Shown here one piece after another: positions 5,498 through 26,080 of a stretch of DNA of 37,436 bases. The stretch covers positions 243,490-280,925 of the forward strand of contig FN649734.1 in the NCBI GenBank assembly GCA_000310025.1, in the 5' to 3' direction. Origin of the DNA: Ectocarpus siliculosus. Lineage: Eukaryota; Sar; Phaeophyceae; Ectocarpales; Ectocarpaceae. The notes beneath the pieces are model-generated. The model saw only the letters and a program-made list of their open reading frames with translations. It was not told where the DNA came from and made no database searches. The first letter of the stretch is position 1. Each line of letters opens with the position of its first letter. The translations under genes were made by a program, and so were the position numbers.

Positions 5498-5568
<71 letters not shown>

Positions 5569-5646
5569 AAGAGAGAGAAAGAGAGAGAGAGGCAGAGAAA
5601 GAGAGACATAGAGAGAGAGGCAGAGAGACAGACAGACAGACAGACG

Positions 5647-5730
<84 letters not shown>

Positions 5731-5742
5731 GAGAAAGAGAGG

Positions 5743-5798
<56 letters not shown>

Positions 5799-9097: not shown

Positions 9098-9319
9098 TTC
9101 TTGTGTCTTGGGGGTATCGCATACCATCATGTTTCTTGTTGGGACGTTGCTTATGTTGTGGCCGAGATTGAGCTGTATTTCTTAACCCTTTAAAAATATT
9201 TTTCGTAATTCTTGTGTCTTGGGGGTATCGCATACCATCATGTTTCTTGTTGGGACGTTGCTTATGTTGTGGCCGAGATTGAGCTGTATTTCTTAACCCT
9301 TTAAAAATATTTTTCGTAA
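9098..9319. repeat. Perfect tandem duplication, 2 x 111 bp
   Basis: Bases 9098-9208 are repeated without difference at 9209-9319, beginning TTCTTGTGTCTTGGGGG and ending TTTTTCGTAA. The identity of the copies implies a recent duplication or an assembly duplication. It is not part of any gene recognised here. Confidence 0.95.
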
Positions 9320-10877: not shown

Positions 10878-11334
10878 GTGAATGCTTTCCTCTTGGTGAT
10901 CGGCTTGTTCGTGCGGCCTTCGTGGGGAGGAATTTTTCCAGGGTCGTGGTCGTTGATGGCCTCGACAATTGGACACTGTCATCGCCATACAAACAAAGAT
11001 CGCAAAACGAAAGGTGCATATTGCCGAAGGCGAGCGGAATCGCACAAAATCAACCACGTAGATATAACGGGGTCCGATATCGCCACCGGGGGAGGCGGCC
11101 GTTTGCGCGCCTCCACTGGTGCCTGCTGCGCCTATCTCGCGCGAGTACACGTAGGGCATTTTTTTCGGAAAGTTGGCGTAGACGCTCGATATGGTACATA
11201 CAGTATATTGGAGGCGTATCACGATCGCGACGAAGAACGGTTGCTCGCGGCGCCACCTGACTTTTACAGTGGACAAGCCCGCCCTGGCAATGTCCCAGAA
11301 AAGGATGAACTGACTGCTCTGGTCGAAGGGGCTC
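10878..11334 (+). pseudogene. Plus-strand ORF interrupted by the retrotransposon, 5' part
   Basis: This ORF runs from an ATG at 10878 to the retrotransposon junction. Its last intact codon is GCT at 11331-11333; the apparent stop (TAA, 11337-11339) lies inside the LTR. If the element and one copy of the 4-bp target duplication are removed, the frame continues into 26077-26160 and ends at a natural TGA. The last 60 or so residues are mixed and acidic, and more protein-like than the first 30, so the true exon may start later than the ATG. The product is not recognised. It could be a host gene or an older mobile element. Confidence 0.5.
11331..11334. other. Target-site duplication GCTC, left copy
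   Basis: GCTC immediately precedes the left LTR and recurs immediately after the right LTR at 26077-26080. Four to six bp is the usual range for Ty3/Gypsy integration. Confidence 0.8.
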
Positions 11335-11632
11335 TTTAAAGGAGGGGAAGCCGTGGGTGGTAGCTTGCTCCTAGAGATAGATGAAGGTAGGTTCTGTCGT
11401 TGACACGCTTGTCCACGATCACGTAGAGATGAGAAAGTTGCTTGTTATTGCTGAGAGACGATCAGCAAGGGTCTGAGGTGAAGTGGGGATCCAACTTCAC
11501 CTCAGGGGGGTACGCAGACTAGACAAAATCCTAAGAGGGTAGGTGTCTGAAGGGTATACCTCCTGAGACCGACCCACATCCTATCAACAATAAGATGTAC
11601 CCTATTTAAGCTAGCAGCCACACTCCTTAACA
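11335..11632 (-). repeat. 3' LTR (298 bp)
   Basis: This LTR is identical over its whole length to 25779-26076. In element sense it starts TGTTAAGGAG and ends CTCCTTTAAA, which form an imperfect terminal inverted repeat; the 3' end is not the usual CA. A 12-bp inverted repeat (11473-11484 and 11494-11505) lies inside it. The sequence just inside the LTR, in sense CAGGGTGGGCTAG, is only a weak polypurine tract. Confidence 0.95.
11473..11505. other. 12-bp stem, 9-nt loop hairpin inside the LTR
   Basis: CTGAGGTGAAGT is followed by nine bases and then its perfect complement, ACTTCACCTCAG. The same structure is at 25917-25949 in the other LTR. In the RNA it could act in dimerisation, packaging or 3'-end formation; this is inference from position only. 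Confidence 0.85.
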
Positions 11633-12908
11633 CTAGCCCACCCTGAATATCATATATGCAGATTCTATACTCAAATCAATGCTCAACTCCTAAAAGCTAC
11701 AACGAAGATTTTAGCTGACGATTGATGCTCATGAATCGAAGATATGACTCTTCACAAAACATCCAAAAAGGAGGGTGAGTTGTAGAAACATCCCGAATCA
11801 ACCCCCACACCATCATTGAGACGAAAGATGGATGCGAACGGCCACGAGACGACACATCGACATCTCAATGACAACGCTCCTATTAATGAAGGGATAAGGC
11901 CAAGAAAAATATGTAGTGCTGCACAGCACGCTATCCGCAACAGACGACGGCAAGAGAAATAAAGTCAAAACCTAAACGCCACACACCACTCGTTTACGCG
12001 CACCCGCGCGTATAACAATGGGAGGAATGAGGGCGACTACCCGAGAGAGCCCCAAAATGCTGCAACAAAACTCAAAACCCAAGCAAAATTTCCGAACGAA
12101 TACGGCCTTTGATACTGGACGCGACGTAAAGGGGAAGATATCAACGCAACCAATCTAGGAAAGCGTCAAAGAAGAGCAGGAGAAATGAATGACAGGCGAA
12201 CACACTGACAACAATTTCCAGAGTGTCAGAGAACTCAAACCGTATAGAGAGGCGGCCACGGCAAGACCTGATGAAAACCAAGAATGCAAAGCATGAATGA
12301 TCAACGTCTGAGAAGCGATCTGACGAACTTTCCCTGGCGCGCGGGCAAAGCACAACACAGGAAGACTCAGATAACACAGAAAAATCGCAGAGATACACAC
12401 AACAACACAACGACTCAAGGGCTCGACGATGATGAAGGCGTCGCCGGCAGGTAGCGATGACGGAGACGAAGTGGAACGAAGTGTGGACGACGACGAATGT
12501 CCACGGGAGAAGACGACGCCACGGGATGGAAGCCCGAAGTAACAAGCCTAGATGACACTTCGGCGATACGGTGGAGCTAAAAAAAAAATGAGTTGGCGAA
12601 AGGCGAACCAAGGGAAACACGAGAAACTCGGGGTTTGCCTGGTCAGAGGCGAACATACCGACGAAACTTGGGGAACTCGTTGTTGAAGTGTTCAGAGGCA
12701 AACAACACCGACGAAACTTGGGGAACTCTTTTTCCAAGTGTTCAGAGGCAAATAACACCGACGAAACTTGGGGAACTCTTTTTCCAAGTGTTCAGAGGCA
12801 AACCACTCGGAGAAAACAAGAAGGAAAAGAAAAAAAAAAAAAAAAAAAAAACGAACAAACAAACAAACAAAATCCAAGATAGACCAGCTCGAACCTAAAA
12901 CGGCGACG
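11633..12908 (-). other. Retrotransposon 3' non-coding region
   Basis: This 1.3 kb lies between the pol stop and the 3' LTR. A minus-strand frame of about 205 codons (12141-12758) crosses the 50-bp repeats. It is Ser/Phe/Leu-rich and has no recognisable envelope or other domain, so I do not call it a gene. An A-run of more than 20 bases at about 12829-12851 and an AACA microsatellite follow. Confidence 0.6.
12642..12801. repeat. 50-bp tandem repeat, about three copies
   Basis: The block ACGAAACTTGGGGAACTC recurs at 12661, 12711 and 12761 with an exact 50-bp period, and TTCAGAGGCAAA links the units. It lies in the 3' non-coding part of the retrotransposon, just downstream (in sense) of pol. 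Confidence 0.93.
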
Positions 12909-15900
12909 CTAGGAAGAGATATTGGGAACAGCCGACGGTAAGGAGTCAGTAATGGGAGGAGTGCGATCCCGGGCGTCGCCCAAAGGGCGCGAGCGATGTT
13001 TTTCTAAACACCACGATCCACAGACGGCGTCCAAGGCGGTGGAGTAGAGGTGCGCTGGCAGAGGGAGAACGCTGGGGCCCGGGTCATCCAGAAATCGAAC
13101 GATGTACGAGCCATCCTGATGAGCACCAATACGTCCTGTCCACCATAATCCGTCGCGGGCCTTGTACCACAGCCGCGCTCCTACTGGAAGGGGCGAAATG
13201 CTGAATCGACGGAGCCAAGTCGCGTGAAGCACAAGGTCAGCCCCAGGAGGCAAATAGCGTTCGCCACGATTCCGGGCGAGCTCCCGTTGTGCCGCGCGTG
13301 TCCGAGCCACTCGATACGTGCGGTTACCCTGCTTGCTTTGGCAGACCTCTCGAGACCAGTACAAGAGGATGTGTCGACGGAATTGATCGAGGTCGGACTC
13401 CCGTTCCCAAGAAGGAGTAGTCAGGCCTAGCCAATGCGTCTGGTACAGGACAGCGAGAACGCCGCTACGGCCCCGCACCAATTGGTGTCCCGAAATGTAG
13501 TCGACCTCGAGGCGCCCGACAGGCACCGACACATCATCCGCGGTGACGTGAAACGGTGGACATTTATCGCCGAAAGAGTGCAGGACATAACGCGAAAGCT
13601 CAGCGGGTAGAGATTGGGGCAGGTCGTCCTTCTCGTACGGATTGCGACAGGGCTTGCAACGAAGGACAGATACGCGACATCGAGCTGCTGGGCCGGAAAG
13701 ATCAGAAGGCAGGTCCAGGTAGAGGAGTTTACGCGCCAACGGGCTTCCATCTGGGGTGGCGTCGGCCGACGCGGGACCCACCGCAAGAACTTTGTAAGGC
13801 CCCGTCCAGGAAAGCGCGAATTTGGCCTTGAGCACCTGGTGATCCGTGTCGTTCCGCACACCCTGTCGAATTGTAGCAGCCGTGTTGTAGACCCAAGCCC
13901 ACCCGCCAACAGTAAATTGCGGGAGCTTGTGGATGGCGTCCAGCAGGGATGAATTACGGCGTTCGACTCGCGAGATCTTCAGGGCGTTGTACTCACGGAC
14001 CAGGTCGTAGGCCCGGCGCTGACGATCGACAGCCAAGTTGCAGTACTCGAGTTGGTCACGGGCTAAGCTTTGATGACCACCTACCGTTGGATGATCGAAG
14101 ACCGAAAGCGGAAGCCGCGGAATGCGTCCGATATGGATCTCGTTCGGCGCCAATCCAGTCGACTGGTTCACGGAATTGTTGTAGGCAAATTCAACGTGCG
14201 GGAGATGTATGTCCCAATCGTTTTGCTGTTCGTTGACGACTACCGCAAGCATCTGAGCCATCGTGTGATTGACGCGTTCCGTGCCGCCGTTGGTTTGCGG
14301 GTGGTAGGAGCTGGTGGTGACTTTCTTGATTTTCATCATCTCGTAGATCGCCATGGAGAGCTTCGAGCAAAAATGCAGTCCGTTGTCCGACAATAACGTA
14401 GTCGGACATCCCCACTTGGTCATGTACTGGTTGACGAAGATGTGAGCCGTCCCTTTCGCCGTAAATTCCGCCGCTGTAACCGCGAACATGTCGGCTCTCC
14501 GGCTGAAACGGTCTGTGAACAATAGAATGTAGGAGTTGCCCTTGGCAGTCACGGGCAGGGGGCCGAAGAAGTCGACGCCTACGACCGTACCAGGCCCCTG
14601 TGGCAATGGCATAGCGATGACGGGCCACCGAGCGGTTTGACGCGAAGTCTTGCGAGCTTGACACACCAAACACGCGCGAAGCCACCAGCGTACGGATCGA
14701 TCCAGACCAATCCACCAGTAGAAACGCTCAAGCAGACGTTGTGTACGATGAACACCAAGATGGAAGGACGCGGCGGTATGGCAGGCATGAAGGACCCACG
14801 GACGCATCAACATGGGCACGTAGACACGGGGCACACCAGTATCCGGTAGACGAGTGGTCCTGCCGCCAGAGCGCCCGATCGGCGATGGCGCCGGTTTATG
14901 TACGAGGAGGGTGACGTTCTCATCGGTCGTGTGCAGCCTGGTTTTCGCCGCCAACGCAAGGACATCGTCCAACCGAGGGGAGCGGAGCGGGGCACTAAGG
15001 GTGAGCAAGTCAGAAGGGGGGGGGAAGGGAGAGCCATGAGACAGAAAGCGCATAGCCACCACGCATTCGCTCTCCCGCTGTTGTTCCCTAGCCCAGTCCA
15101 CAGTGCCGAAACTCTGAACGCAAGCTCGCAAATGTGAGGGGTCCAAGTCAGTCGGCTCCAACCCAGAGACAAGCGATCCCACGGAAGAGGCTGGAGAACG
15201 AGGGGCCTCAACGAGTGGTGAAGTTGCAGACCGCGGTGTCACCTCAGGAGGAGGCATTGGGCGGGGCGAAGTCCCAGGCGAAACCTGGATAGAGGGCAAA
15301 ACCGAGGATGCAGCGCGCGCCGATGCCGGCGAAGGCACCTGTGGCGCAGAGGCAGTCGACGAAAACGCCGACGTTGACGTCGCAGATGACGGCAGGGGAC
15401 GCGTGCCGGTCCGGATGGTCTTGTTTGTCGAGCGGGACCGGCTAGGACGACGGGCAGTGGACGATGCCCGAGGGACGATGGTAGCCCGCGGCTGGCGTCC
15501 GAAATAGGTGGGACCGGTGACGGTGCCTCCAGAAGCAGCGGTGGTCTTGGCCCGAGTTCGTGAAGAAATGAGCGGTCCCCGCTCCGGAAGCGAAGACAGG
15601 ACGTGCACATATCTATTCGCCAAAGACGCGGCCGGAGACATTCCGCGGGACGTAGCCGGAGCCAAACAGGAAACAGGCACCGGAGACGTGGAAACATGTG
15701 AGACCACGAAGACTCCCGAAGACCTCCGAGAAACTTGATAATCAATCGGGGAGTCCGATCGAACATCCAGCAGGCGCGGGTGATGACGGCGGAAATCCCC
15801 AAAATCAGATGGCTGTAGCGCTGGGGGTGAAAAGACACCCGCCGAGCAGGGAGGGCGGAGCCCACCCAAACCGACCTCCGGCGTAGACGACGAGTGATAG

Positions 15901-18812
15901 TTGAGTCCACAAGCCCGAATGAGGAAGACACCAGCGTGATCGACACCATCAATGCAATCGGGGCCGGTTGTGTCCGTGTCTTGTGCTGGTAAAGGCAGCC
16001 GCGAAAGGAAATCCGCGTTGCCGTTTGCCGAACCTTTCCGATATTTCAGGGTGTAGGTGAAGTTGGACAGGAATTCGAGCCATGGTTGTACCCTGGCGTT
16101 GTGTTCTCCAACCTTTCCAATGCTCTCTAAGGCTTTGTGATCTGAATAGATGATGAACTTGGTTGACCACAAATAGCCCCGAAGGCGCTTAATGGCCCAA
16201 ACAATGCCACCAGCTTCCAGATCCAGAACAGTCCAGTTCCGCTCCGCCGGAAGAGTAGCGCGGCTGATGTACACAATGGGTCTTACCGAGCCATCGAGTT
16301 GTTCTTGTTCCAGGGAGGCTCCAAAGCCGTCAATGCACGCGTCGGAGCACAAACGGAGAGGACGGCTGTTGTCCTCGACCGCAGCCCAATCCGGGAAGAC
16401 CAAAATCGGGGGACGCGCGAGTTCGCTCAACAACGTTTTGACAACCTTGACCATGCCCGGGGTGTACTTGAAGGGGACGCCTTGTTTGAGAAGAGAGTTG
16501 AGAGGCCGCACCTTGGTGGCGAGATTCTGAAGGAATTTCCGGTAGTAGCTGAGGCCACCGAGGAGGCTCCTAAGCTGCTTAACATTCGTCGGCGGCGGCA
16601 TGTGCGTGAGCGCCCGAACCTTGACGCCATCAGGGCTAACCCCAGCCGGGGAGATGGTGTGACCGAGGAAATTGGCTTGGGTGGCGCCGACACGAGCCTT
16701 CCCTGGAGACAGCTTGAGGTTGTACTGGCGCAGCCGTTTGAAAAACTCGATCATGTTGAGCACGTGTCCCAGAGGTTCCTCATCGAAACAGATAACATCA
16801 TCCAGATAAGCAAGCACACGCTCCAGACCGTGCACCACTCGGTTGATGACCTTGACGAACCAAGACGGGCTGGCGTTGGCTCCTTGCGGCATCCGAAGCC
16901 ATTCGAACAACTGCGTGGGAGTGCAAAAGGCGGTGAGCGGGACAGTGTCTTCGTCACAAACGATCTGGTGGAAGGCCGAATTGAGATCGAAGATGGAGAA
17001 CACTTTCCCGGTGTAGAGAGAATCCAAGATACCGTCCACCCGAGGGAGAGGTTGTCCATCCAAGTCCACCAGGGCGTTGAGTCGTTTGTAGTTGACGGTG
17101 ATGCGAACCGATCCGTCCTTCTTGGGGATGACGACCAGGGGAGAAGCCCAGGGAGAAGTGGAATGCTGAATGAGCCCTGCCGCCAAATACTGGTCCAAGA
17201 CGGCATCCACTTTCTTCTGCATTAACGGGTTAATACGATACGGGCGTGATGCGACGGGCTTCGTCCCTGCGGGGACAGAAAGAGTGAATGGCATGACGGT
17301 GCAGGAACCAAAATCGGTTTTCGAAGTAGAGAACACGTCGGAATACTCAACAAGGGCGTCGGCCAAACGATCAATAGCCTCCGGTGTCCATCCCGGGTTG
17401 TGTAGATCGAAAGCGATGTCGTGCATATGTGCGGGCAGCCTAGTCCACAATCGCAGAAAACTGGAGCGCTGGGCCTCGGAGAAGCGGTCAAGCAGTTCTT
17501 GCGGAGGCGGGGCGGAGGCTGGGTCCGGAGAGCGGCGAGTCCCGGACTTGGGGCCAACGGCGTTGACCCGATGCGGTGATGTAGAGGACGGGGGGGCGGT
17601 GGGAGTCGAAGATGGAGCCGCCTTCAGGGTTTCTACCGGTACTCGTAATAGCGGTGCAGCAGACACTCCAATAACGTCGCCCGGCTCCAATTCGGCACAA
17701 CCTGCAAGGGGAATACGCTGAAGACCATTGGAAACAAATGCATCGGGGGACGAAAGTGCACCCACTTCAGGTCGGAACGATACGAGATATTCGCCGATCA
17801 GCGCAGGCATGCCCGAAGAACGGACGAGGTCCACCTCAACAAGGGCAGGCTCCGGCCCCAAGGAAATGCCCGAGCTCCCTGCATATTTGAGGTGAAACGA
17901 AGAGGCAGGAGCGTCGTCGTGTGTAGCGTAAACACAAGCGCCAGCGGTGAAACGTGGAGAGAGCGTGAGCTCGCCCATAACCCGGCCGTCCGGTCCAGGG
18001 TGGGGGAGGGTGGTGAACACTCGAGAGTTGAACCGCATCCAGCTATCGCGACCCAGAAGCACGGCGTGCCCCATGGCGGCATCTGGAACAACGCAGGCCC
18101 AGACCGCCAACGAAGCGGTAGCTCGAGCTCCATGAAGAAAATTAACGGTGAGACGAACTGACCGAGTGGTCACAAGGGCGGGTCCATCACCAAACCCACC
18201 CCAACGACGAGAGGGCGAAACACGAACGCTGCCAGCTGTCAAGGCTCCAGCAGCTATCATGGCGGTGACCACGGAGTCGGACACAAAAGACGCAGGAGAC
18301 CCAGAGTCCAGCAGTGCCACTCGCGCGAGTTGAGAAGTGGCTGTAGGTCCGCCATGCAGCAGAACCCGGGTGGTGTAAGAGTCCGAGTCCAACAGGAGCG
18401 TGCCGCCGACCAGATCGGGCCCGTGTTCCAGAAGAGGAGGTTGGTCTGCACAAGCGGAGGTCGAGGCCACCAGATGAACACCAGGAGCATGGTCCCCCGG
18501 AGCGTCCAAACGGAGACAAGCTGGGTCTTCACCCCGGTCCTCCCGTGACGACGAACCGGCCGCGGTAGCAACCTCGTGGATGCGTCTACGGCCATGGGGA
18601 AGAGGCTGCGAAATGGGGGGGGTGGGGGAAGTGGAGGCGGAGAGAGCTTCGCCAGACAGGGGATGATCCCGCAAAAGGCGCCGAACTTCCATCAAAGCTT
18701 TTCCCAACAAGTTTTTACCGCTAGACGCCCACTTGGATGAAATGCTAGCCTCCGGAAAGCATGCAGACATGCCGATACCCCAAACACGATCAAAGGGGGC
18801 TGGCTTCCGCAA
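12909..18812 (-). CDS. pol: Pol polyprotein: NADAR C-terminus, protease, RT, RNase H, integrase, chromo-like and Tudor-like modules
   Basis: This is the replication polyprotein of the element. The frame opens with TTG, not ATG, and residues 7-50 complete the NADAR domain begun in the frame before, so it is probably expressed by a +1 shift rather than its own start. Aspartic protease: DSG at 169-171 and LLGRDSW at 252-258. RT: Asp609 and YLDD at 669-672. RNase H: Asp824, Glu866, Asp891. Integrase: H1351/H1355/C1381/C1384 zinc finger, then D1414, D1476 and E1512 (D-x35-E), and GPYKV near 1671. A chromodomain-like segment (about 1767-1822, with THWLGLTTPSWERESDLDQF) and a Tudor/Agenet-like segment (about 1875-1925, with WYKARDGLWWTGRI) end the protein. 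Residues 945-1330 form a Ser/Pro/Arg-rich linker unusual between RNase H and integrase. All catalytic residues looked for are present. Confidence 0.96.
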   Translation of the reverse strand: MRKPAPFDRVWGIGMSACFPEASISSKWASSGKNLLGKALMEVRRLLRDHPLSGEALSASTSPTPPISQPLPHGRRRIHEVATAAGSSSREDRGEDPACLRLDAPGDHAPGVHLVASTSACADQPPLLEHGPDLVGGTLLLDSDSYTTRVLLHGGPTATSQLARVALLDSGSPASFVSDSVVTAMIAAGALTAGSVRVSPSRRWGGFGDGPALVTTRSVRLTVNFLHGARATASLAVWACVVPDAAMGHAVLLGRDSWMRFNSRVFTTLPHPGPDGRVMGELTLSPRFTAGACVYATHDDAPASSFHLKYAGSSGISLGPEPALVEVDLVRSSGMPALIGEYLVSFRPEVGALSSPDAFVSNGLQRIPLAGCAELEPGDVIGVSAAPLLRVPVETLKAAPSSTPTAPPSSTSPHRVNAVGPKSGTRRSPDPASAPPPQELLDRFSEAQRSSFLRLWTRLPAHMHDIAFDLHNPGWTPEAIDRLADALVEYSDVFSTSKTDFGSCTVMPFTLSVPAGTKPVASRPYRINPLMQKKVDAVLDQYLAAGLIQHSTSPWASPLVVIPKKDGSVRITVNYKRLNALVDLDGQPLPRVDGILDSLYTGKVFSIFDLNSAFHQIVCDEDTVPLTAFCTPTQLFEWLRMPQGANASPSWFVKVINRVVHGLERVLAYLDDVICFDEEPLGHVLNMIEFFKRLRQYNLKLSPGKARVGATQANFLGHTISPAGVSPDGVKVRALTHMPPPTNVKQLRSLLGGLSYYRKFLQNLATKVRPLNSLLKQGVPFKYTPGMVKVVKTLLSELARPPILVFPDWAAVEDNSRPLRLCSDACIDGFGASLEQEQLDGSVRPIVYISRATLPAERNWTVLDLEAGGIVWAIKRLRGYLWSTKFIIYSDHKALESIGKVGEHNARVQPWLEFLSNFTYTLKYRKGSANGNADFLSRLPLPAQDTDTTGPDCIDGVDHAGVFLIRACGLNYHSSSTPEVGLGGLRPPCSAGVFSPPALQPSDFGDFRRHHPRLLDVRSDSPIDYQVSRRSSGVFVVSHVSTSPVPVSCLAPATSRGMSPAASLANRYVHVLSSLPERGPLISSRTRAKTTAASGGTVTGPTYFGRQPRATIVPRASSTARRPSRSRSTNKTIRTGTRPLPSSATSTSAFSSTASAPQVPSPASARAASSVLPSIQVSPGTSPRPMPPPEVTPRSATSPLVEAPRSPASSVGSLVSGLEPTDLDPSHLRACVQSFGTVDWAREQQRESECVVAMRFLSHGSPFPPPSDLLTLSAPLRSPRLDDVLALAAKTRLHTTDENVTLLVHKPAPSPIGRSGGRTTRLPDTGVPRVYVPMLMRPWVLHACHTAASFHLGVHRTQRLLERFYWWIGLDRSVRWWLRACLVCQARKTSRQTARWPVIAMPLPQGPGTVVGVDFFGPLPVTAKGNSYILLFTDRFSRRADMFAVTAAEFTAKGTAHIFVNQYMTKWGCPTTLLSDNGLHFCSKLSMAIYEMMKIKKVTTSSYHPQTNGGTERVNHTMAQMLAVVVNEQQNDWDIHLPHVEFAYNNSVNQSTGLAPNEIHIGRIPRLPLSVFDHPTVGGHQSLARDQLEYCNLAVDRQRRAYDLVREYNALKISRVERRNSSLLDAIHKLPQFTVGGWAWVYNTAATIRQGVRNDTDHQVLKAKFALSWTGPYKVLAVGPASADATPDGSPLARKLLYLDLPSDLSGPAARCRVSVLRCKPCRNPYEKDDLPQSLPAELSRYVLHSFGDKCPPFHVTADDVSVPVGRLEVDYISGHQLVRGRSGVLAVLYQTHWLGLTTPSWERESDLDQFRRHILLYWSREVCQSKQGNRTYRVARTRAAQRELARNRGERYLPPGADLVLHATWLRRFSISPLPVGARLWYKARDGLWWTGRIGAHQDGSYIVRFLDDPGPSVLPLPAHLYSTALDAVCGSWCLEKHRSRPLGDARDRTPPITDSLPSAVPNISS
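18789..18795 (-). promoter_or_regulatory. Candidate +1 ribosomal frameshift site CTT-TGA-T
   Basis: The upstream frame ends in CCC CTT TGA T. A +1 slip on CTT passes directly to GAT and joins EASPL to DRVWGIG, the expected continuation of a NADAR domain. CUU followed by UGA is the same shift codon and stop used by bacterial prfB (RF2). The alternative is a one-base error or mutation in the run of five C. Context supports recoding: the pol frame has no ATG of its own at the junction. Confidence 0.65.
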
Positions 18813-20025
18813 GGAGGCGGGTACCCGTCTCCAGTAAATGTTGTTTCATGTCGTGGTTCTGAGCGAATTTGGCATACGACCCCGTAAGCACGATCTCTTC
18901 TCGACGACGCTCCCATTCGGCATAATCAAAAGGACGTACGTTACGACCCAAGGACTTGTGGGTCTTAGGATCGGTTGCAGCCATGATTTTGTCATACGAC
19001 GTCATATCCCCAAACAACTTCGCTTTTTCAGACATCATAAATTGCTCACCACATGAATAACGTACCCCCAGTACGTCAAAAGCCGAGGGAGTCCATTGCG
19101 AGAACACAGACGGAGGTTTCCAGAAGAGGAGGACGTCATCCGAAGCGTACTCGCATTTGTCATCAAACGGCGGAGCCGGTGCAGGGCGGAGGGGCAAAGA
19201 GCGGGCACCAGGCACGGGCGGGGGTGAGCCAAGCGGACGGGTCCTCATCTCCGACGGGGAGGACCCAGAAAGCGAGGGAGGAGCGGGCGAAGTCGTTCCG
19301 GTCCATGATCCGGAGGGCGGCCTACGAGCGGCGGCTCCGGCGAGGTCAATGTTAGCAGAGGCCATTCGGCTATGAGAGACCCGTTCGTTAGGAGAAGTCT
19401 TTCCTGCGGCAGACGAATGTGCGTGAATGGACGCAGGGCGCTCTGGACTACTCCCCCGTGACAAAGGAGCCGAACCTTCCACCGAATGGTGGGCACTACC
19501 ATCCGATCCCGATGGCAGTGGTGCAGTCAGCACGTTGTGGGCAGCAGAGGAAGACGCATTCGTATCAGGTGCTGTCACACGGGGGCAGCGGACGGTCGAA
19601 GACAACGAAAGCTGCGAAAGAGAAGGAGAATCGACAGGATCCCCGGCGAATGTAGAAGAAGGCTCGTGTGCTATCCGAGAAGAGGCCCGGCTGACAACAC
19701 CAGAAGAGTCTTGGCGAACAGTAGTAGACGAGGTTCTTGTTCCTTCTGTAACCCGAGACGACGAGGTGAGCAGGGGTGAACCGCTCGACGTCTTACCTCC
19801 CTGTCGCCCACACCACAAAGGTTGTGCCGGAGTGGGTTTGTCATGTCCAAAACCAGCAGACGATGAGGCGGGCGATGAGGAGGCGGGCCGAGAAACTAAA
19901 CGTGATTGGGGGACATCGGGAGTATCCAAAGAAGTAGGCTGTACACGAACATCTTGGGAGACTCCAAAAGGGTGCACGGTGGTTGCTGTTGACGGTAGTA
20001 CCGGCTGAACTCCGCCATCGGCAAG
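18790..20025 (-). CDS. Linker plus N-terminal two-thirds of a NADAR (YbiA-like) domain, read through from gag
   Basis: This frame is in phase with gag and separated from it only by a single TGA. It has no ATG near its opening, so it is best read as a gag extension. The first 300 or so codons are Ser/Pro/Ala-rich and probably disordered. From about 19131 (codon 283 counting from the GTG at 19977) it matches the NADAR family: LLFWKPPSVFSQW, then CGEQFMMSEKAKLFGD, ATDPKTHKSLGR, a W near codon 355, KFAQN, and LLETGTRLLAEASP at the end. The domain finishes in the +1 frame (WGIGM, then GKNLLGKALMEVR). NADAR proteins act on ADP-ribose derivatives, and some remove ADP-ribose from guanine in nucleic acid. 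Its role here is unknown. The domain call is strong; the function is inference. Confidence 0.85.
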   Translation of the reverse strand, partial: LADGGVQPVLPSTATTVHPFGVSQDVRVQPTSLDTPDVPQSRLVSRPASSSPASSSAGFGHDKPTPAQPLWCGRQGGKTSSGSPLLTSSSRVTEGTRTSSTTVRQDSSGVVSRASSRIAHEPSSTFAGDPVDSPSLSQLSLSSTVRCPRVTAPDTNASSSAAHNVLTAPLPSGSDGSAHHSVEGSAPLSRGSSPERPASIHAHSSAAGKTSPNERVSHSRMASANIDLAGAAARRPPSGSWTGTTSPAPPSLSGSSPSEMRTRPLGSPPPVPGARSLPLRPAPAPPFDDKCEYASDDVLLFWKPPSVFSQWTPSAFDVLGVRYSCGEQFMMSEKAKLFGDMTSYDKIMAATDPKTHKSLGRNVRPFDYAEWERRREEIVLTGSYAKFAQNHDMKQHLLETGTRLLAEASPL

Positions 20026-20028
20026 TCA
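20026..20028 (-). promoter_or_regulatory. Candidate UGA readthrough site between gag and the NADAR frame
   Basis: The gag frame ends AAG AAA TGA CTT GCC. The next 16 codons and the whole NADAR frame are in the same phase with no other stop. UGA followed by C is a comparatively leaky stop context, and stop readthrough at the gag end is known in gammaretroviruses. The alternatives are a point mutation of a sense codon, or re-initiation at an internal Met. Confidence 0.6.
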
Positions 20029-23000
20029 TTTCTTACCCTTCCAGCCCCTCTTAGCCGAAGTGGAAGTCTCCGACGAGGATTCTGTGTGTGAGGACTGTTT
20101 CATGTCCGATGTGTCAAATGAGCGGCGGGCTCGTCCGGAGGAGTGATTACGGGGTGGGTTGCGTCCTGTAGGGCGTCTATACGAGGTCATGCGCTTTTTC
20201 CACCGACTCCAAAGTGCGGGATCTTTTTCCATGCAGAGCTTGATGTCATTGTTAAGCAGGCCTGTGGCGTTAATGAAACCACGAGTACAGGATTTGAAGG
20301 AGTGATCTTCGCCTAAGCAGTTGAGGCACTTGCCCTTGTACAGCCGAAGCGCGTTGCGGCGGTCTTCAGCTGAGACCAAGGGGGTGAACAACGGCGGATC
20401 ATTCTTGGTTAGAGCCATCTCACTAGCGACATTGTACACCTCTTGAAAGTGTCCTGGCAACGGCCAGTCGCTGTAGTGCAACAGAAAAGGGTCCCGATCA
20501 TCATTAGGCAGAGGGTCAACACTCATCACCGCAGCCGAAGAACCTCGGCTCCACGAAGGGGTCACCGACGAATGCAACGCCGAAGAAGCTACAGCACGCG
20601 AAACCGCAGACGAACTCCTAGCATTCGTGGAAGACACCGAAAAAAAATCGTCCCCATGTACCGCCGGCGTGTGCGCGAATGCCCGCTTGTCCAACACATC
20701 CCACATATCGTCCAAACACGAAGCATGTCGCCCAAAAGGGGCTTCCATGGAGAGCTGCTCATCCTTGTACACCTGTCCAGACACTACGGGAAACTGCTTC
20801 AACATGGAGTCTCGAACAGCTATCTGCACTTGTGCATCCGAAGGCTTGAACGCGTGATGAGAAACCATGACAGTCATGGCCAGAGCCTTATAGCGACGAA
20901 TGTATTCTCCGTACGTCTCGCCGGTGGACACGCCAAAACTACGAAGGCGATCGATCCCCGAGCTCTTGTCTTGAGTGTCCCAGGCGGCCGCCAATTTCTG
21001 GATAAAGAACGCGTACGTCGAGGGCCCGGCCGGTTCCTTGCGCAGATGGTTTTCTACCTGTTGGAAAGTGGCATCAAGAAATTCCAGCGTGGCACGGTTG
21101 GTGGTTTGACCTTCAACGACAGCAGCACGAACACGTTTGCGCAACAACGGAAGCCATCCTGCGACCCAGGTGGAGGAAGCGAAAGTCTGCTTGCGTTTGA
21201 CGTCGCTTTTGTTGAGGATCTCGGTGACCACGCCCTTGCAGCTAGACGCGAAACGAGCAAATTCATCAGGATCAGAACCAAGGGGCAAGCGTGTGACACT
21301 ATCAAGTTGTTCCGGCTTCAGCTTGTCCATCTTGTCTTGGATGCGGATGGTGTCGGCCTCCGCTGCAGCGGCGTCCGCAGCGTCCAAAGCCTCCTGCCTC
21401 GTCCTCGCCCCCGTGGAAGACAAAGGCAAGCTAGCATCATCCTGAGGCAACGGCGATGTCGCGTTGGCCGGTGACGCCATGACGTGGCCGGTCGCCGGGC
21501 GAGGATCGATCAGGATAGACGTACGCGGGAGGGGGGGGGGCACCACCAAAGGCTGTTGTAGCAAAGCTGGGGCGGTCGACGCTGATGACACCACCAAAGG
21601 CTGTTGCGGCAGAGCTGGGGCGGTCGACGCTGATGACACCACCAAAGGCTGTTGCGGCAGAGCTGGGGCGGCCGGCGCTGATGACGATGACACTGCCGTG
21701 GTCCTGGCAGCTGCCTCATCGTGAACCTCGTACCCTGAACGAACTCCCGANNNNNNNNNNNNNNNNNNNNNNNNNNNNNNNNNNNNNNNNNNNNNNNNNN
21801 NNNNNNNNNNNNNNNNNNNNNNNNNNNNNNNNNNNNNNNNNNNNNNNNNNTCAAGTTGTTCCGGCTTCAGCTTGTCCATCTTGTCTTGAATGCGGATGGT
21901 GTCGGCCTCCGCTGCAGCGGCGTCCGCAGCGTCCAAAGCCTCCTGCTTCGTCCTCGCCCCCGTGGAAGACAAAGGCAAGCTAGCATCATCCTGAGGCAAC
22001 GGCGATGTCGCGTTGGCCGGTGACGCCATGACGTGGCCGGTCGCCGGGCGAGGATCGATCAGGATAGACGTACGCGGGAGGGGGGGGGGCACCACCAAAG
22101 GCTGTTGTAGCAGAGCTGGGGCGGTCGACGCTGATGACACCACCAAAGGCTGTTGCGGCAGAGCTGGGGCGGCCGGCGCTGATGACGATGACACTGCCGT
22201 GGCCCTGGCAGCTGCCTCATCGTGAACCTCGTACCCTGAACGAACTCCCGAGGAACTCGAAGCGTGGTCTTGCAATGGTGCCAAATGCGCCCGTGACGAA
22301 AAGGGTGGGGCAGAAGGTGGCATGCTAGGGGCGTTCGAGGGCACAGAAGGTGGTACATTCGAGTCGGCAGCAGCATCCACAACTTGACCAGGCGTTTGCG
22401 CGCGCAGGAGAGTGAGCACTTGTTCCAACAGCATTTCAGTACGGGAAGCCGAAGTCGAGGCGTGTGATGCAGCATTGCGTGGTGAACCAACCCGTTCGTC
22501 CAAAAGCAAGGAAGATGTGGGCTGATCTACCACGGTGTGTGTAGGGGCATGGCTTTTAACCGCGGCGGAATGTTCACGAAGTTGCATGTTGGCAAGTTTG
22601 AACGCCAAAGTAGACACGGGCGGCGGTCCTACATCAGCGGGGGGGAGCAAAACCGGTGGCGAAGAACAGAGTGAACCATCTTCTGAGGCAGTCTTACGTT
22701 CCCCCAACAGCCCAGAACTACGAAAATCACACCGATCATACTGCACTTGCCTGCGACCCCGACCTGACTTCCGTCGCCCTTTGCCCCCTCGACCGCTGTC
22801 CGAGCTGGTCGCCCTGCTGTTGCCCCCACTCCTCGTCGGGCTCCGGCTGCGGCTACGCCTACGCGAAGGCGTGTTGCTCCCGCGGCGGTCGCTGCTCCGG
22901 CTGCGACCACGCCGAGACGAAGGTGCGTGACGTGGCTGGCGGTCGGTGCTCCGGCTCCGGCTCCGGCTCTCGCGGTGTCGACGCTTGGACGAAGATTCCG

Positions 23001-25347
23001 CGTACCCCCGCCCGCCATCTTCAACACCCGGCCCTCGCGAAGTGCGCTCGGCCGTCCCGCTCTTGGCCGTGGGGGCTTGATCACCCCAACGGCTCCTCCG
23101 GCTGGTGGAGGCAGGAGCCGCCGACAGACTGTAGTCCTTGGTCCCTCCGGAACCATGCGCACGGCTTGCAGAATCCTGCTGTGGGAGCTGCAGATCATGC
23201 TGAAAATCGTCGTTGGTTGCAGTACGAGCTAGTGGCAACCGAATTCCCCCATTGTGCACCACCACCGCGGTTCCCTGGGGACCCTCGGTGAAGGAAGCCC
23301 TACGGAGAGCAGACACTAACCGAAACACACTCTGTCGTAAGGACGGTTCTAGCTGGTCGAGGAACGGACTCGATACAAGATGTGCAAAACCAAGGTCTGT
23401 ATAAGAGTCAGGACAGCGGTCACTCACGATGTGTTGGAGGCCAGCCCACGCAAAAAGGGCACTAGTTCGGTCAGCATCATGGAAGGTGATCACATCTGTG
23501 GGCGTGGAAAGGGGGCGGGACAGGAACGCTGTGTCTTCTGCGTGAAACCTGTACTCCTCGGCTTCGTCATCTGACGCGCCGTCGGCATCCCCGGCCGGCC
23601 CACCCAGCGTCACAGAAAACTGGGGAGCAGCAGCCACTTCCGGTGCCGCCTGGGGCGTGGGAGGGGGCACGACACGACGACGGGCGGGTCGCGAAAGCAA
23701 AGTTGAAGCTTGCGGCCGGCGCCCGAGGTCCTCCAGCCGTGATCTGAGCGCCCCTTGCTTCGCCCTAGCAGCCCGGACATACTCCTCGCGCGCCGCTAGT
23801 TCCGCTTTCTTCTGTGCAGCAGCCCGAGCAGCCTCGCGCTCCTCCTCCTGCTTCCTCGCAGCCTCCGCCAGAGCAGCCTCACGCTCCTCCTCCTGCCTCC
23901 TCGCAGCTTCCGCCAGAGCAGCCTCACGCTCCTTCGCCTGCTTCCTCGCAGCCTCCGCCAGAGCAGCCTGACGCTCCTCCTCCTGCTTCCTCGCATCATC
24001 CGCCAGAGCAGCCTCACGCTCCTCCAGCAGCTTCCGCTCTTCCGCCGCCGCTACCTCGCTAGCCAGACCGCGGTGCCACATCTCGGTCAATTCTTGAAAG
24101 GCGGCGAACTCATCTTGCGACAAGTGCATCACCATGTCTTCCTGCGGGAGCGAGAAAGGGCGAGCGCAAATGGGGGAACCAGGAGACAAACGAGCTGCCC
24201 TGACCACGTCGCGCAGGGAGATCCGTCCAGCGGTGTACGCTTGTTCCAGGTCCGCCGGATCCGCCGTGGCGATGTTGTACCTCAGGTCATCAGCTGCGGA
24301 CGCGCCTGGAGTGGACTCGCTCTCGTCGCCTGTCCCGGCCCCTGCAAGCAGCTCCGCGGTGGACGGCTCGCCCTCGGCCTCGTAATCGAGGATTTCCTCA
24401 TTGCCGTCCATCAGTTCCACATATCCGCTGGACATGGTGTTCTCTTTTTTCAAAAAGACAGGGCCAGAGGAAGGGCAGCTACTATCGATTTTTACAAGTG
24501 CAGAACGGCCAGCAACAGTAGATGTGTCACCCCCAACCGCTGTTGCGACAGCAGAACCGATTGCAGCGGAAACAGTAAAGCGGGGCGTAATCGCGGTAGA
24601 AGCAAACCGAGGTCCATGCGAAAAACGGAGATACCCACAGGACAGCATACGCCCGGCGATAAAAGCTTGATGCACACGAGGTTGAAGCGGATCCAACCAA
24701 GCAGAAAAGGCGTCCAAAAGCACACCATGCCACGCATACACAGCAGTGGAAGCTAGCACAAAAGGACCGGTATTAAATGGGGACACGAGATTGTCCGACC
24801 AAAACACACGCAGAGCAGCACGGCGTTCCTCCGCAACGGGTGCCGAAGTGCGAGCAAAGACCGCTGTGGGTTTGCGCTGTTGAAAGGTTTCCAATTCGAA
24901 TGCCTTGAGGGTGAATGATGCTCCAAAAAAAAATTCCATGTGATTGCGAAAAATGGAGGGAAGGCTGGTGGGGCGGCTGACACCCAATTTGTGTGCACAC
25001 AATGCTCTCCACGTCGAAACAAGCGGAGTCAAATCGGAGAGCACCACAGGGAAATCCGCGGACATCGGCCGGTACGCCGGCATGAATGCAGTAGAAGTGG
25101 TAGCGGACGCGGGAAGCATGCTATCATCTCGAGTCCCGCTACACAAAGACAGCAACTCCGGTTGCTTCATGCAAAGCGTGTCCGCCACCGAAATAACTTC
25201 ATGGACCGCCGATGCAGACAAAATAGCTTGGGAGGGGCGGCGAGCGTAGGAAAAATCACCTACAACATCGCGATGACCGCCGAGACGCGTATCCTTCGCA
25301 AGGTCCCAGTCCCGCGGGCGCTTAGCGAAAGCATCGCAAGCCAGCAT
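20026..25347 (-). CDS. gag: Gag-like structural protein with coiled coil, RS segment and CCHC knuckle
   Basis: This is the structural protein of the retrotransposon, starting at an ATG at 25347 just inside the leader. In reading order it has a 300-residue N-terminal region of unknown fold. A second good start at Met305 (24435) with an A at -3 could be the real one. A charged coiled coil follows (about 430-535) made of 15-residue repeats such as EEEREAALAEAARKQ. Next come an RS-rich segment (about 785-845), a Pro/Ala-rich low-complexity part, a capsid-like helical region (about 1350-1600) and a zinc knuckle CLNCLGEDHSFKSC (C1674, C1677, H1682, C1687; C-x2-C-x4-H-x4-C), then a basic tail. The frame crosses a 100-N gap (residues 1166-1199) flanked by duplicated sequence, so the true length is probably about 1,590-1,606 rather than 1,773. 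It is long for a Gag. Confidence 0.85.
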   Translation of the reverse strand: MLACDAFAKRPRDWDLAKDTRLGGHRDVVGDFSYARRPSQAILSASAVHEVISVADTLCMKQPELLSLCSGTRDDSMLPASATTSTAFMPAYRPMSADFPVVLSDLTPLVSTWRALCAHKLGVSRPTSLPSIFRNHMEFFFGASFTLKAFELETFQQRKPTAVFARTSAPVAEERRAALRVFWSDNLVSPFNTGPFVLASTAVYAWHGVLLDAFSAWLDPLQPRVHQAFIAGRMLSCGYLRFSHGPRFASTAITPRFTVSAAIGSAVATAVGGDTSTVAGRSALVKIDSSCPSSGPVFLKKENTMSSGYVELMDGNEEILDYEAEGEPSTAELLAGAGTGDESESTPGASAADDLRYNIATADPADLEQAYTAGRISLRDVVRAARLSPGSPICARPFSLPQEDMVMHLSQDEFAAFQELTEMWHRGLASEVAAAEERKLLEEREAALADDARKQEEERQAALAEAARKQAKEREAALAEAARRQEEEREAALAEAARKQEEEREAARAAAQKKAELAAREEYVRAARAKQGALRSRLEDLGRRPQASTLLSRPARRRVVPPPTPQAAPEVAAAPQFSVTLGGPAGDADGASDDEAEEYRFHAEDTAFLSRPLSTPTDVITFHDADRTSALFAWAGLQHIVSDRCPDSYTDLGFAHLVSSPFLDQLEPSLRQSVFRLVSALRRASFTEGPQGTAVVVHNGGIRLPLARTATNDDFQHDLQLPQQDSASRAHGSGGTKDYSLSAAPASTSRRSRWGDQAPTAKSGTAERTSRGPGVEDGGRGYAESSSKRRHRESRSRSRSTDRQPRHAPSSRRGRSRSSDRRGSNTPSRRRSRSRSPTRSGGNSRATSSDSGRGGKGRRKSGRGRRQVQYDRCDFRSSGLLGERKTASEDGSLCSSPPVLLPPADVGPPPVSTLAFKLANMQLREHSAAVKSHAPTHTVVDQPTSSLLLDERVGSPRNAASHASTSASRTEMLLEQVLTLLRAQTPGQVVDAAADSNVPPSVPSNAPSMPPSAPPFSSRAHLAPLQDHASSSSGVRSGYEVHDEAAARATAVSSSSAPAAPALPQQPLVVSSASTAPALLQQPLVVPPPLPRTSILIDPRPATGHVMASPANATSPLPQDDASLPLSSTGARTKQEALDAADAAAAEADTIRIQDKMDKLKPEQLXXXXXXXXXXXXXXXXXXXXXXXXXXXXXXXXXXSGVRSGYEVHDEAAARTTAVSSSSAPAAPALPQQPLVVSSASTAPALPQQPLVVSSASTAPALLQQPLVVPPPLPRTSILIDPRPATGHVMASPANATSPLPQDDASLPLSSTGARTRQEALDAADAAAAEADTIRIQDKMDKLKPEQLDSVTRLPLGSDPDEFARFASSCKGVVTEILNKSDVKRKQTFASSTWVAGWLPLLRKRVRAAVVEGQTTNRATLEFLDATFQQVENHLRKEPAGPSTYAFFIQKLAAAWDTQDKSSGIDRLRSFGVSTGETYGEYIRRYKALAMTVMVSHHAFKPSDAQVQIAVRDSMLKQFPVVSGQVYKDEQLSMEAPFGRHASCLDDMWDVLDKRAFAHTPAVHGDDFFSVSSTNARSSSAVSRAVASSALHSSVTPSWSRGSSAAVMSVDPLPNDDRDPFLLHYSDWPLPGHFQEVYNVASEMALTKNDPPLFTPLVSAEDRRNALRLYKGKCLNCLGEDHSFKSCTRGFINATGLLNNDIKLCMEKDPALWSRWKKRMTSYRRPTGRNPPRNHSSGRARRSFDTSDMKQSSHTESSSETSTSAKRGWKGKK
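21302..22251. other. 100-N gap flanked by the same ~0.4-kb sequence (likely overlapping contig ends)
   Basis: Bases 21302-21750, ending exactly at the gap, match 21851-22251, which begins exactly after it. There are a few substitutions and one 48-bp repeat unit of difference. A real tandem duplication would not be expected to start and stop precisely at both edges of the gap. Two contigs that overlap but were not merged explain it, because they come from two alleles or two element copies. Confidence 0.85.
21545..21690. repeat. 48-bp in-frame repeat in gag
   Basis: The unit containing CACCACCAAAGGCTGTTG encodes 16 residues (SSASTAPALPQQPLVV) and occurs three times here. It occurs only twice in the second copy of the region (about 22090-22190). 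It is a low-complexity spacer in Gag and length-polymorphic. Confidence 0.85.
23815..24033. repeat. 45-bp in-frame repeat encoding the Gag coiled coil
   Basis: About five imperfect 45-bp units around CGCCAGAGCAGCCTCACGCT encode the 15-residue Glu/Ala/Arg/Lys repeats of the Gag coiled coil. The 15-residue period is close to two heptads. Confidence 0.88.
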
Positions 25348-25778
25348 CCTCTACAAGAGAAGAAGCAGAGAAGGCTAAGTCTAGAATCTCGTGGGTGGTG
25401 AGACCAAATAACAAACAACCCCGTGGTTGTGAAGAAAGCGTGACAACAACACACAGCAGTGTGGAGGCCGCGTCCAGCACCCGCTTACCGTGTAATGCCA
25501 GCTGACGCCAAGTTTAATTCTGGTAAAAGTCAATCGACGGATACCCTGCGAATCGGGTCCTCCTTAACACTCTCCACCCACAGAATTTACCCTCAACTGG
25601 GAACCTCTTGTGGCCAGGACGGGTAATTCGATGGAAGTGTCACAAGGTTCTTTATAGGATCGATTCCAAGAGGTGTTCTCAGGACTGACACACATTGTGT
25701 CCATGGGAAATGTCCAAGTCAGGAGAAAAAATGTGCACCCAAGGAGATTCGAACCAGTATCCTGCCGCTGACGCCAAG
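25348..25778 (-). other. Retrotransposon 5' leader
   Basis: This is the untranslated leader between the 5' LTR and the gag ATG. It holds the primer binding site next to the LTR. A second copy of the 16 bases GCTGACGCCAAGTTTA lies at 25501-25516, and a 10-base match to the LTR start (CTCCTTAACA on the plus strand) lies at 25560-25569. Together these look like the remnant of an older LTR-PBS junction. A GGTTCGAATCT string (B-box-like) lies just past the PBS in sense. Confidence 0.6.
25759..25776 (-). promoter_or_regulatory. Primer binding site (18 nt)
   Basis: In element sense TGGCGTCAGCGGCAGGAT begins two bases after the 5' LTR. Its complement ends in CCA and reads like a tRNA 3' end: part of the T arm (ATCCTGC), a seven-base acceptor strand CGCTGAC, discriminator G and CCA. 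Similarity to a tRNA is lost after exactly 18 nt, the usual PBS length. The tRNA would start GTCAGCG; its identity is not established. Confidence 0.75.
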
Positions 25779-26076
25779 TTTAAAGGAGGGGAAGCCGTGG
25801 GTGGTAGCTTGCTCCTAGAGATAGATGAAGGTAGGTTCTGTCGTTGACACGCTTGTCCACGATCACGTAGAGATGAGAAAGTTGCTTGTTATTGCTGAGA
25901 GACGATCAGCAAGGGTCTGAGGTGAAGTGGGGATCCAACTTCACCTCAGGGGGGTACGCAGACTAGACAAAATCCTAAGAGGGTAGGTGTCTGAAGGGTA
26001 TACCTCCTGAGACCGACCCACATCCTATCAACAATAAGATGTACCCTATTTAAGCTAGCAGCCACACTCCTTAACA
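25779..26076 (-). repeat. 5' LTR (298 bp)
   Basis: This is the promoter-bearing LTR of the element, identical to the left LTR at an offset of 14,444 bases. In sense, a TTAAATAG string (plus 26046-26053) about 23 bases from the LTR start could serve as a TATA-like element, though its position near the LTR start is unusual and I do not rely on it. Confidence 0.95.
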
Positions 26077-26080
26077 GCTC
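26077..26080. other. Target-site duplication GCTC, right copy
   Basis: It matches 11331-11334 on the other side of the element. Confidence 0.8.

Follow-up and report, generated by a model that had tools for sequence, protein, structure and literature searches.

The 37,436-nt stretch of the Ectocarpus siliculosus genome analyzed here (assembly GCA_000310025.1, contig FN649734.1, positions 243,490 to 280,925; hereafter the window) holds on its minus strand a retrotransposon that runs from 26076 down to 11335 and encodes, in order, Gag, a NADAR domain, a protease motif, reverse transcriptase (RT), RNase H, and integrase. The element has long terminal repeats (LTRs) and a 4-bp target duplication, a gag frame, and a pol region ordered protease-RT-RNase H-integrase, with the protease recognized from its motif alone. 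Judged by this order and by matches to RVT_1 and RT_RNaseH, it fits the class of Ty3/Gypsy LTR retrotransposons (Table 1). The sequence GAGC at 26077-26080 and again at 11331-11334 fits the target duplication and, because it flanks two identical LTRs, the insertion looks young.

An earlier note on this DNA had proposed that a NADAR domain is built into the polyprotein between Gag and protease. The family motifs it named are all present on the minus strand within 18669-19125, and the order is as it described, with the gag zinc knuckle first, then NADAR, then the DSG-containing protease motif. The Pfam comparison it had called for returned PF08719 for the first part of the domain at 1.3e-30 (107.2 bits against a cut-off of 35.1; profile positions 2-124 of 163). 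The second part, in another frame, matched at 3.5e-8 (34.3 bits, just below the 35.1 cut-off when this piece is scored alone; profile 123-163), and three intact relatives scored 155.7-159.3 bits. The NCBIfam model TIGR02464 gave 97.6 bits with the window's first part. When a profile of 51 database relatives was compared with the PDB, it matched 8bau at 4e-39 and E. coli YbiA (2b3w) at 7e-22; we infer from residue spacing that 8bau, named in the database as a NADAR domain-containing protein, is the P. nicotianae NADAR. By these profile matches, the domain is a member of the NADAR/YbiA superfamily.

Table 1. Features of the Ty3/Gypsy element in the window, listed in the element's own 5' to 3' direction.
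Feature	Position	Strand	Details
5' LTR	25779..26076	-	298 nt, identical to 11335-11632
Putative primer binding site	25759..25776	-	starts TGG, 2 nt past the LTR; read from the sequence
gag open frame	20029..25347	-	zinc knuckle CLNCLGEDHSFKSC at 20287-20328
gag stop, putative readthrough site	20026..20028	-	UGA then C, same frame open beyond
Possible stem-loop	19990..20017	-	begins 8 nt past the UGA
Pro/Ser-rich linker, gag stop to NADAR	19126..20025	-	dN/dS 0.70 (residues 1-280, family A)
NADAR (YbiA-type) domain	18669..19125	-	PF08719 in two pieces; one frame change near 18796-18812
NADAR motif FWKPPSVFSQW	19125-19093	-	
NADAR motif GEQFMMSEKA	19050-19021	-	
NADAR motif ATDPKTHKSLGR	18978-18943	-	
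NADAR motif KFAQN	18870-18856	-	
NADAR motif EASP	18807-18796	-	
NADAR motif WGIG	18782-18771	-	
NADAR motif GKNLLGKAL	18719-18693	-	
Motif ALLDSGSPASF, which we take to be retropepsin-like	18285..18317	-	motif only
RT and RNase H	16059..17300	-	PF00078, PF17917, PF17919; YLDD 16808-16788; 5' boundary approximate
Integrase, zinc-binding H2C2 and core	14298..14819	-	PF17921 2.2e-14; PF00665 3.8e-7 (30.8 bits; cut-off 32.6)
Weak chromodomain-like match	13353..13508	-	PF00385 E 0.12, under cut-off
Tudor/Agenet-like stretch, tentative	13050..13193	-	by eye
3' LTR	11335..11632	-	100% identity with the 5' LTR

Searching the host genome for the domain gave 230 candidates, 150 of which were scored as NADAR matches. 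We examined 103 copies besides the window's, mostly the better-scoring ones; the other 47 or so are mostly partial, and three of those were examined. Clustering divides the 101 full-span copies into six groups (27, 23, 19, 18, 6, and 5 copies; families A to F) and three singletons, two of them frame-scrambled. The domain is also linked to RT: of the 150 RT copies scored among 433 candidates, 124 are preceded on the same strand by a listed NADAR no more than 5 kb away. The remaining 26 have none listed, and inspection of four revealed one frame-broken NADAR and three with none within 1.2 kb. Two matches, at C3:3913787 and C489:435177 of the host genome, lie in open frames of 10,887 and 6,365 codons, longer than one element should give.

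In the protein database, the NADAR of a pol frame matched ten proteins. Six of these also carry RT; two, at 92 and 88%, belong to Ectocarpus sp. CCAP 1310/34, and the other four match at 55-69%. With the Pol C terminus as query, 18 matches were obtained. NADAR is held by 11 of the 22 database Pol proteins that we compared; of the 11 without it, ten start downstream of the NADAR site and one (P0143) has 678 unaligned residues in front. None of these represents a shown loss of the domain, and no clear NADAR-free full-length member was seen among the 22. Separately, a 2912-aa database protein (P0009) combines a NADAR domain with PF02481, presumably the DprA family. The gag-NADAR-pol arrangement, which the earlier note had suggested seeking in related genomes, thus proves general to the lineage: six families of this genome have it, as do elements from other assemblies. 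This distribution agrees with a report of one Ectocarpus Gypsy lineage described as having NADAR in all of its families (PMC12477816).

We then considered the ADP-ribose site, using the residue numbering of the P. nicotianae NADAR (PMC11543638) and mapping positions by eye via alignment and motif spacing. Among the 101 full-span copies, the site was retained at E43 in 100, K50 in 99, K75 in 99, R79 in 99, W89 in 99, R93 in 97, E125 in 99, D130 in 101, and W133 in 100. K75 is described as lying near the ligand without a clear contact (PMC11543638). At the E125 position the copies have the YbiA-type Glu, as opposed to the Asp of BC4488 or the His of phage NADARs.

For the 87 of 101 copies that remained after leaving out 12 with stops and two frame-scrambled ones, we calculated the ratio of nonsynonymous to synonymous substitution rates (dN/dS) as summed dN over summed dS, using pairs with dS from 0.02 to 2. 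Within families, the ratio for NADAR was 0.15 in A (264 of 300 pairs), 0.21 in B (128 of 153), 0.25 in C (132 of 136), 0.27 in F (9 of 10), 0.45 in D (64 of 153), and 0.50 in E (3 of 3). Between families it was 0.18 for A versus G (25 of 25 pairs) and 0.09 for B versus F (17 of 90), with dS mostly saturated elsewhere. Across seven family A copies (21 pairs), NADAR stood at 0.14, the linker before it at 0.70, the linker after it at 0.25, the protease stretch at 0.12, RT at 0.39, and RNase H at 0.21. These values are descriptive because the copies are not independent. As judged from such codon comparisons, they show NADAR to have been kept by purifying selection along with its ADP-ribose site.

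The closest relatives that we found are cellular brown-algal NADAR genes rather than bacterial or viral ones. In a tree of 111 NADARs, from which 26 of 130 database rows had been left out as partial, the retrotransposon sequences and four stand-alone proteins from brown algae and EukProt form one clade (96/96). The stand-alone proteins nest inside this clade beside one retrotransposon group (98/76), in an analysis whose bootstrap had not settled. A quick tree with 28 viral loci, placed from the best 80 of at least 542 confirmed viral NADAR loci, recovered the same clade (97) with the viral sequences outside. A bacterial or viral NADAR as the nearest source was not supported; 0 of the 28 placed viral loci fall inside the clade. 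This result favours an exchange of the domain with a cellular NADAR gene of brown algae. The transfer may have gone either way, because a separate single clade of retrotransposon NADARs was not rejected (approximately unbiased test, p-AU 0.44), and the host may just as well have domesticated the element's domain as the element captured the host's. The host genome's own cellular NADAR gene (L113, C24:2124900-2127300) lies in four pieces and has a Cys-rich N terminus; three of these pieces match Ectocarpus sp. 13 at 83-95%, and the fourth, which runs past an exon edge, at 62%.

How NADAR and Pol would be expressed is suggested by the end of gag. Of 20 gag frames with a knuckle from families A to E, 19, including the window's, end in UGA followed by C, the other having an earlier stop, and the family F gag also ends this way. 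Beyond the UGA, 10 of the 20 frames run on for 1000 codons or more, and the others, the window's among them, are interrupted sooner. Known readthrough sites include UGA-C followed some 8 nt later by a structure, and each of the six families allows a stem to be drawn 8 or 9 nt past the UGA. Shuffled sequences did as well as the stem in 104 (A), 1 (B), 45 (C), 35 (D), 0 (E), and 223 (F) of 2000 trials, and the window's 86-nt fold has a z of -1.75, with 11 of 200 shuffles as good. This signal is suggestive only, since the position was chosen after inspection and the families are related. The UGA-C with its possible stem suggests a candidate readthrough site; among the literature matches listed, no title concerns stop codon readthrough in brown-algal Gypsy elements.

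By analogy with studied members of the family, the likeliest function of this NADAR would be to clear ADP-ribose from the element's own RNA or cDNA. Occasional readthrough of the UGA-C would yield a Gag-NADAR-Pol polyprotein, so that NADAR would be made at the level of Pol and packed with RT in the particle. There, acting as an ADP-ribosylhydrolase, it would free the RNA genome and single-stranded cDNA of guanine ADP-ribose, which would otherwise impede reverse transcription. The domain itself would have passed between the element and a cellular gene of brown algae, not come directly from a bacterium or virus. The NADARs tested in published work reverse guanosine ADP-ribosylation in DNA (PMC11125620) and in RNA, and are inactive on ADP-ribose at phosphate ends (PMC11833690); an eraser function fits this reported biochemistry, together with that in PMC11543638, and the conserved site. 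The placement of NADAR beside RT in one polyprotein is, in our view, best explained as protection of template or cDNA. We hold the complete proposal, from readthrough through packed eraser to exchange with a host gene, tentatively, as a little short of an even prospect. A related candidate, repair of RNA phosphate ends, was rejected given the inactivity of NADARs on that substrate (PMC11833690) and the lack of a KptA match in an exon-level search of the host genome.

Several points weigh against the eraser proposal. The position of D86, a residue reported to contact the proximal ribose, is kept in only 1 of 101 copies and that of Y84 is F in 98, and in the E. coli C7 NADAR replacing the E43 equivalent with alanine is described as costing little activity in vitro (PMC11543638). 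E. coli YbiA is reported to be less active on RNA than the DarT1-linked C7 NADAR (PMC11833690), NADARs outside DarT operons are said to have protected cells inefficiently and several active NADARs to have failed a DarT1 rescue test in E. coli (PMC11125620), and alternative NADAR substrates have been proposed (PMC9503650). Exon-level searches of the host genome found no DarT and four weak PARP matches, leaving no known source of guanine ADP-ribosylation. Families D and E have dN/dS values of 0.45-0.50, shuffles equal the stem in 223 (F) and 104 (A) of 2000 cases, and the phylogeny carries both the p-AU of 0.44 for a retrotransposon-only clade and the unsettled bootstrap. Finally, readthrough is inferred from sequence only, and the eraser activity is putative.

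Of the alternatives, the one that survives best holds that NADAR targets small NAD-derived molecules, such as ADP-ribose derivatives, defence signals, or riboflavin intermediates, instead of nucleic acid. The name of TIGR02464, riboflavin-intermediate N-glycosidase, points this way, as does the proposal that small ADP-ribose compounds are targets of viral, mainly phage, NADARs (PMC9503650). For such a role, however, one would expect a free enzyme rather than one tied to RT, and we consider it unlikely. A second alternative, which we regard as distinctly improbable, is that NADAR acts as an ADP-ribose reader that, with a chromatin-reader-like region at the C terminus, would help to direct the particle or integrase to damaged DNA or to chromatin bearing ADP-ribose. 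It would account for the conserved ADP-ribose-site positions and is in keeping with the chromatin readers that Gypsy lineages of Ectocarpus are reported to have on the integrase side (PMC12477816), although the matches here are weak. NADAR lies at the Gag/protease end of the polyprotein, though, not at the integrase, and retention of E125 and K50 in 99 of 101 copies each perhaps exceeds what binding alone needs.

That NADAR is a passenger, a piece of a host gene caught by chance and of no function to the element, has the closely related cellular gene in its favor, but is hardly credible for a domain found in six families and in elements of other assemblies, with dN/dS below 1 in every family. 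Copy number and dN/dS likewise rule out the version of this idea that the earlier note had raised against itself, a chance capture decayed elsewhere; instead the profile match is strong, the domain is general, and it is under purifying selection.

The copy in the window has one peculiarity. The earlier note wrote of a frame-joined region; it was right that NADAR is present, but passed over the fact that the domain is split between two frames. The frame coming from gag and the linker is lost near 18796-18812, and the rest of NADAR through integrase continues in another, a change that could reflect either mutation or faulty assembly. The NADAR span is in a single frame in 101 of the 103 other copies (12 with an internal stop, two with frame-scrambled stretches), and the remaining two reach profile position 147-148 of 150. 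Four of the 150 scored matches, the window's included, end at profile 123-127: one family B and one family D copy shift frame where the window's family A copy does, in opposite directions, and the third other match, also of family B, just ends there. The two frame-changing copies outside the window are L198 (C134:52550-53050) and L199 (C33:3249600-3250130), both in the host genome. Breaks at this spot are thus rare yet recurrent, most copies have none, and nothing suggests that the break is used. A programmed frameshift giving regulated NADAR would suit frames that overlap in the middle of the domain and the shifts at the same place in two other families, but we give it almost no credence when just 4 of 150 matches end there, the changes run in both directions, and 87 of 101 copies are unbroken and free of stops; as the rule of the family it conflicts with what most copies show. 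A site where slippage errors readily arise accounts for the recurrent breaks better.

Several other features were noted in the element and its surroundings. The gag frame contains a run of 100 N (21751-21850) between near-identical 300-nt copies (21302-22150), which marks it as an assembly gap, so the length of gag is not reliable; two pieces of the frame scanned against Pfam gave no family above cut-off, and a Pfam scan of pol gave no protease family. At the Pol C terminus, a profile compared with the PDB had the MPP8 chromodomain as its top match (E 1.1), and Agenet (PF05641) was matched in two of three aligned C termini (best E 0.027) and was not listed for the window's own sequence. The matches to a Tudor domain there were only weak. 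Tandem arrays lie just downstream of the pol frame (a 50-nt unit three times, 12657-12817) and at 9098-9319 (a 111-nt unit twice), and a dense minisatellite-like array occupies 5399-5860 (32 overlapping register copies). Adjoining the element, two exon-like minus-strand frames at 2079-2594 and 6661-7395 match Pfam Sulfatase (1.8e-7 and 1.6e-7) and perhaps belong to one intron-bearing sulfatase gene.

The physiological role of eukaryotic NADARs has been called unclear (PMC11125620). That selection keeps the domain in a mobile element narrows its possible roles here to retrotransposition steps or to a conflict between element and host. A broader scenario, which we think unlikely, is that brown algae restrict retrotransposons through guanine ADP-ribosylation of the elements' RNA or cDNA and that the Gypsy lineage described here has for a long time borne in its particles an eraser that reverses these marks and was exchanged with a NADAR gene of the cell. 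If true, it would constitute a eukaryotic counterpart of the DarT/NADAR conflict, set between a genome and its transposons. The testable question that follows is whether the RNA or cDNA of brown-algal elements is ADP-ribosylated, and by what.

Compared with known systems, the element's domain is of the same family by profile as the P. nicotianae NADAR (8bau) and E. coli YbiA (2b3w) and has the same key positions, whereas those are stand-alone proteins, 8bau with an insertion near its C terminus. Cellular brown-algal NADARs (P0015 and P0016 from Ectocarpus, P0020 from Scytosiphon, P0019 from EukProt, and the host gene) share 51-61% identity with the family A domain and a similar FD-x-x-x-EY lead-in, but stand alone, and in P0016 and P0020 the N terminus is rich in Cys. 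DarT-NADAR toxin-antitoxin systems do not match, as no DarT was found in the exon-level genome search and the YbiA-type Glu replaces the BC4488-type Asp. The oyster Tx1 long interspersed nuclear element is likewise a retroelement with NADAR, in its ORF1, but is non-LTR and its domain is described as divergent (PMC12477816). The NADARs of invertebrate RNA viruses are, by description, likewise part of a polyprotein that includes the viral polymerase, although those are positive-strand RNA viruses (PMC9503650).

The nearest precedent is an Ectocarpus Gypsy lineage, reported in 2025, whose Pol carries a conserved N-terminal NADAR (PMC12477816), the one relevant work among the literature matches listed for NADAR/YbiA in retrotransposons or brown algae. 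The NADAR-Gypsy fusion, which the earlier note was unsure had been catalogued, is therefore already known in Ectocarpus, and the window's element is one copy of such a lineage. It resembles the elements described from Ectocarpus sp. 7 (for example, Gypsy-12_Ec32) in being a brown-algal Gypsy with NADAR at the N terminus of Pol; the C-terminal chromodomain expected of that lineage would correspond here to the weak PF00385 match, under cut-off. Its section on the NADAR-Gypsy lineage gives no selection test, and the terms 'readthrough', 'stop codon', and 'frameshift' have 0 occurrences in its main text. From blastp searches outside Ectocarpus, in which almost all hits were bacterial, it suggests horizontal transfer; the closest relatives found here, by contrast, are cellular brown-algal genes, not bacterial ones. 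New relative to that work are the count of six families, the linkage to RT, the conservation of the site, the dN/dS values, the UGA-C, and the cellular algal relatives, whose position next to the element's domain offers an alternative to the published hint of a bacterial origin.

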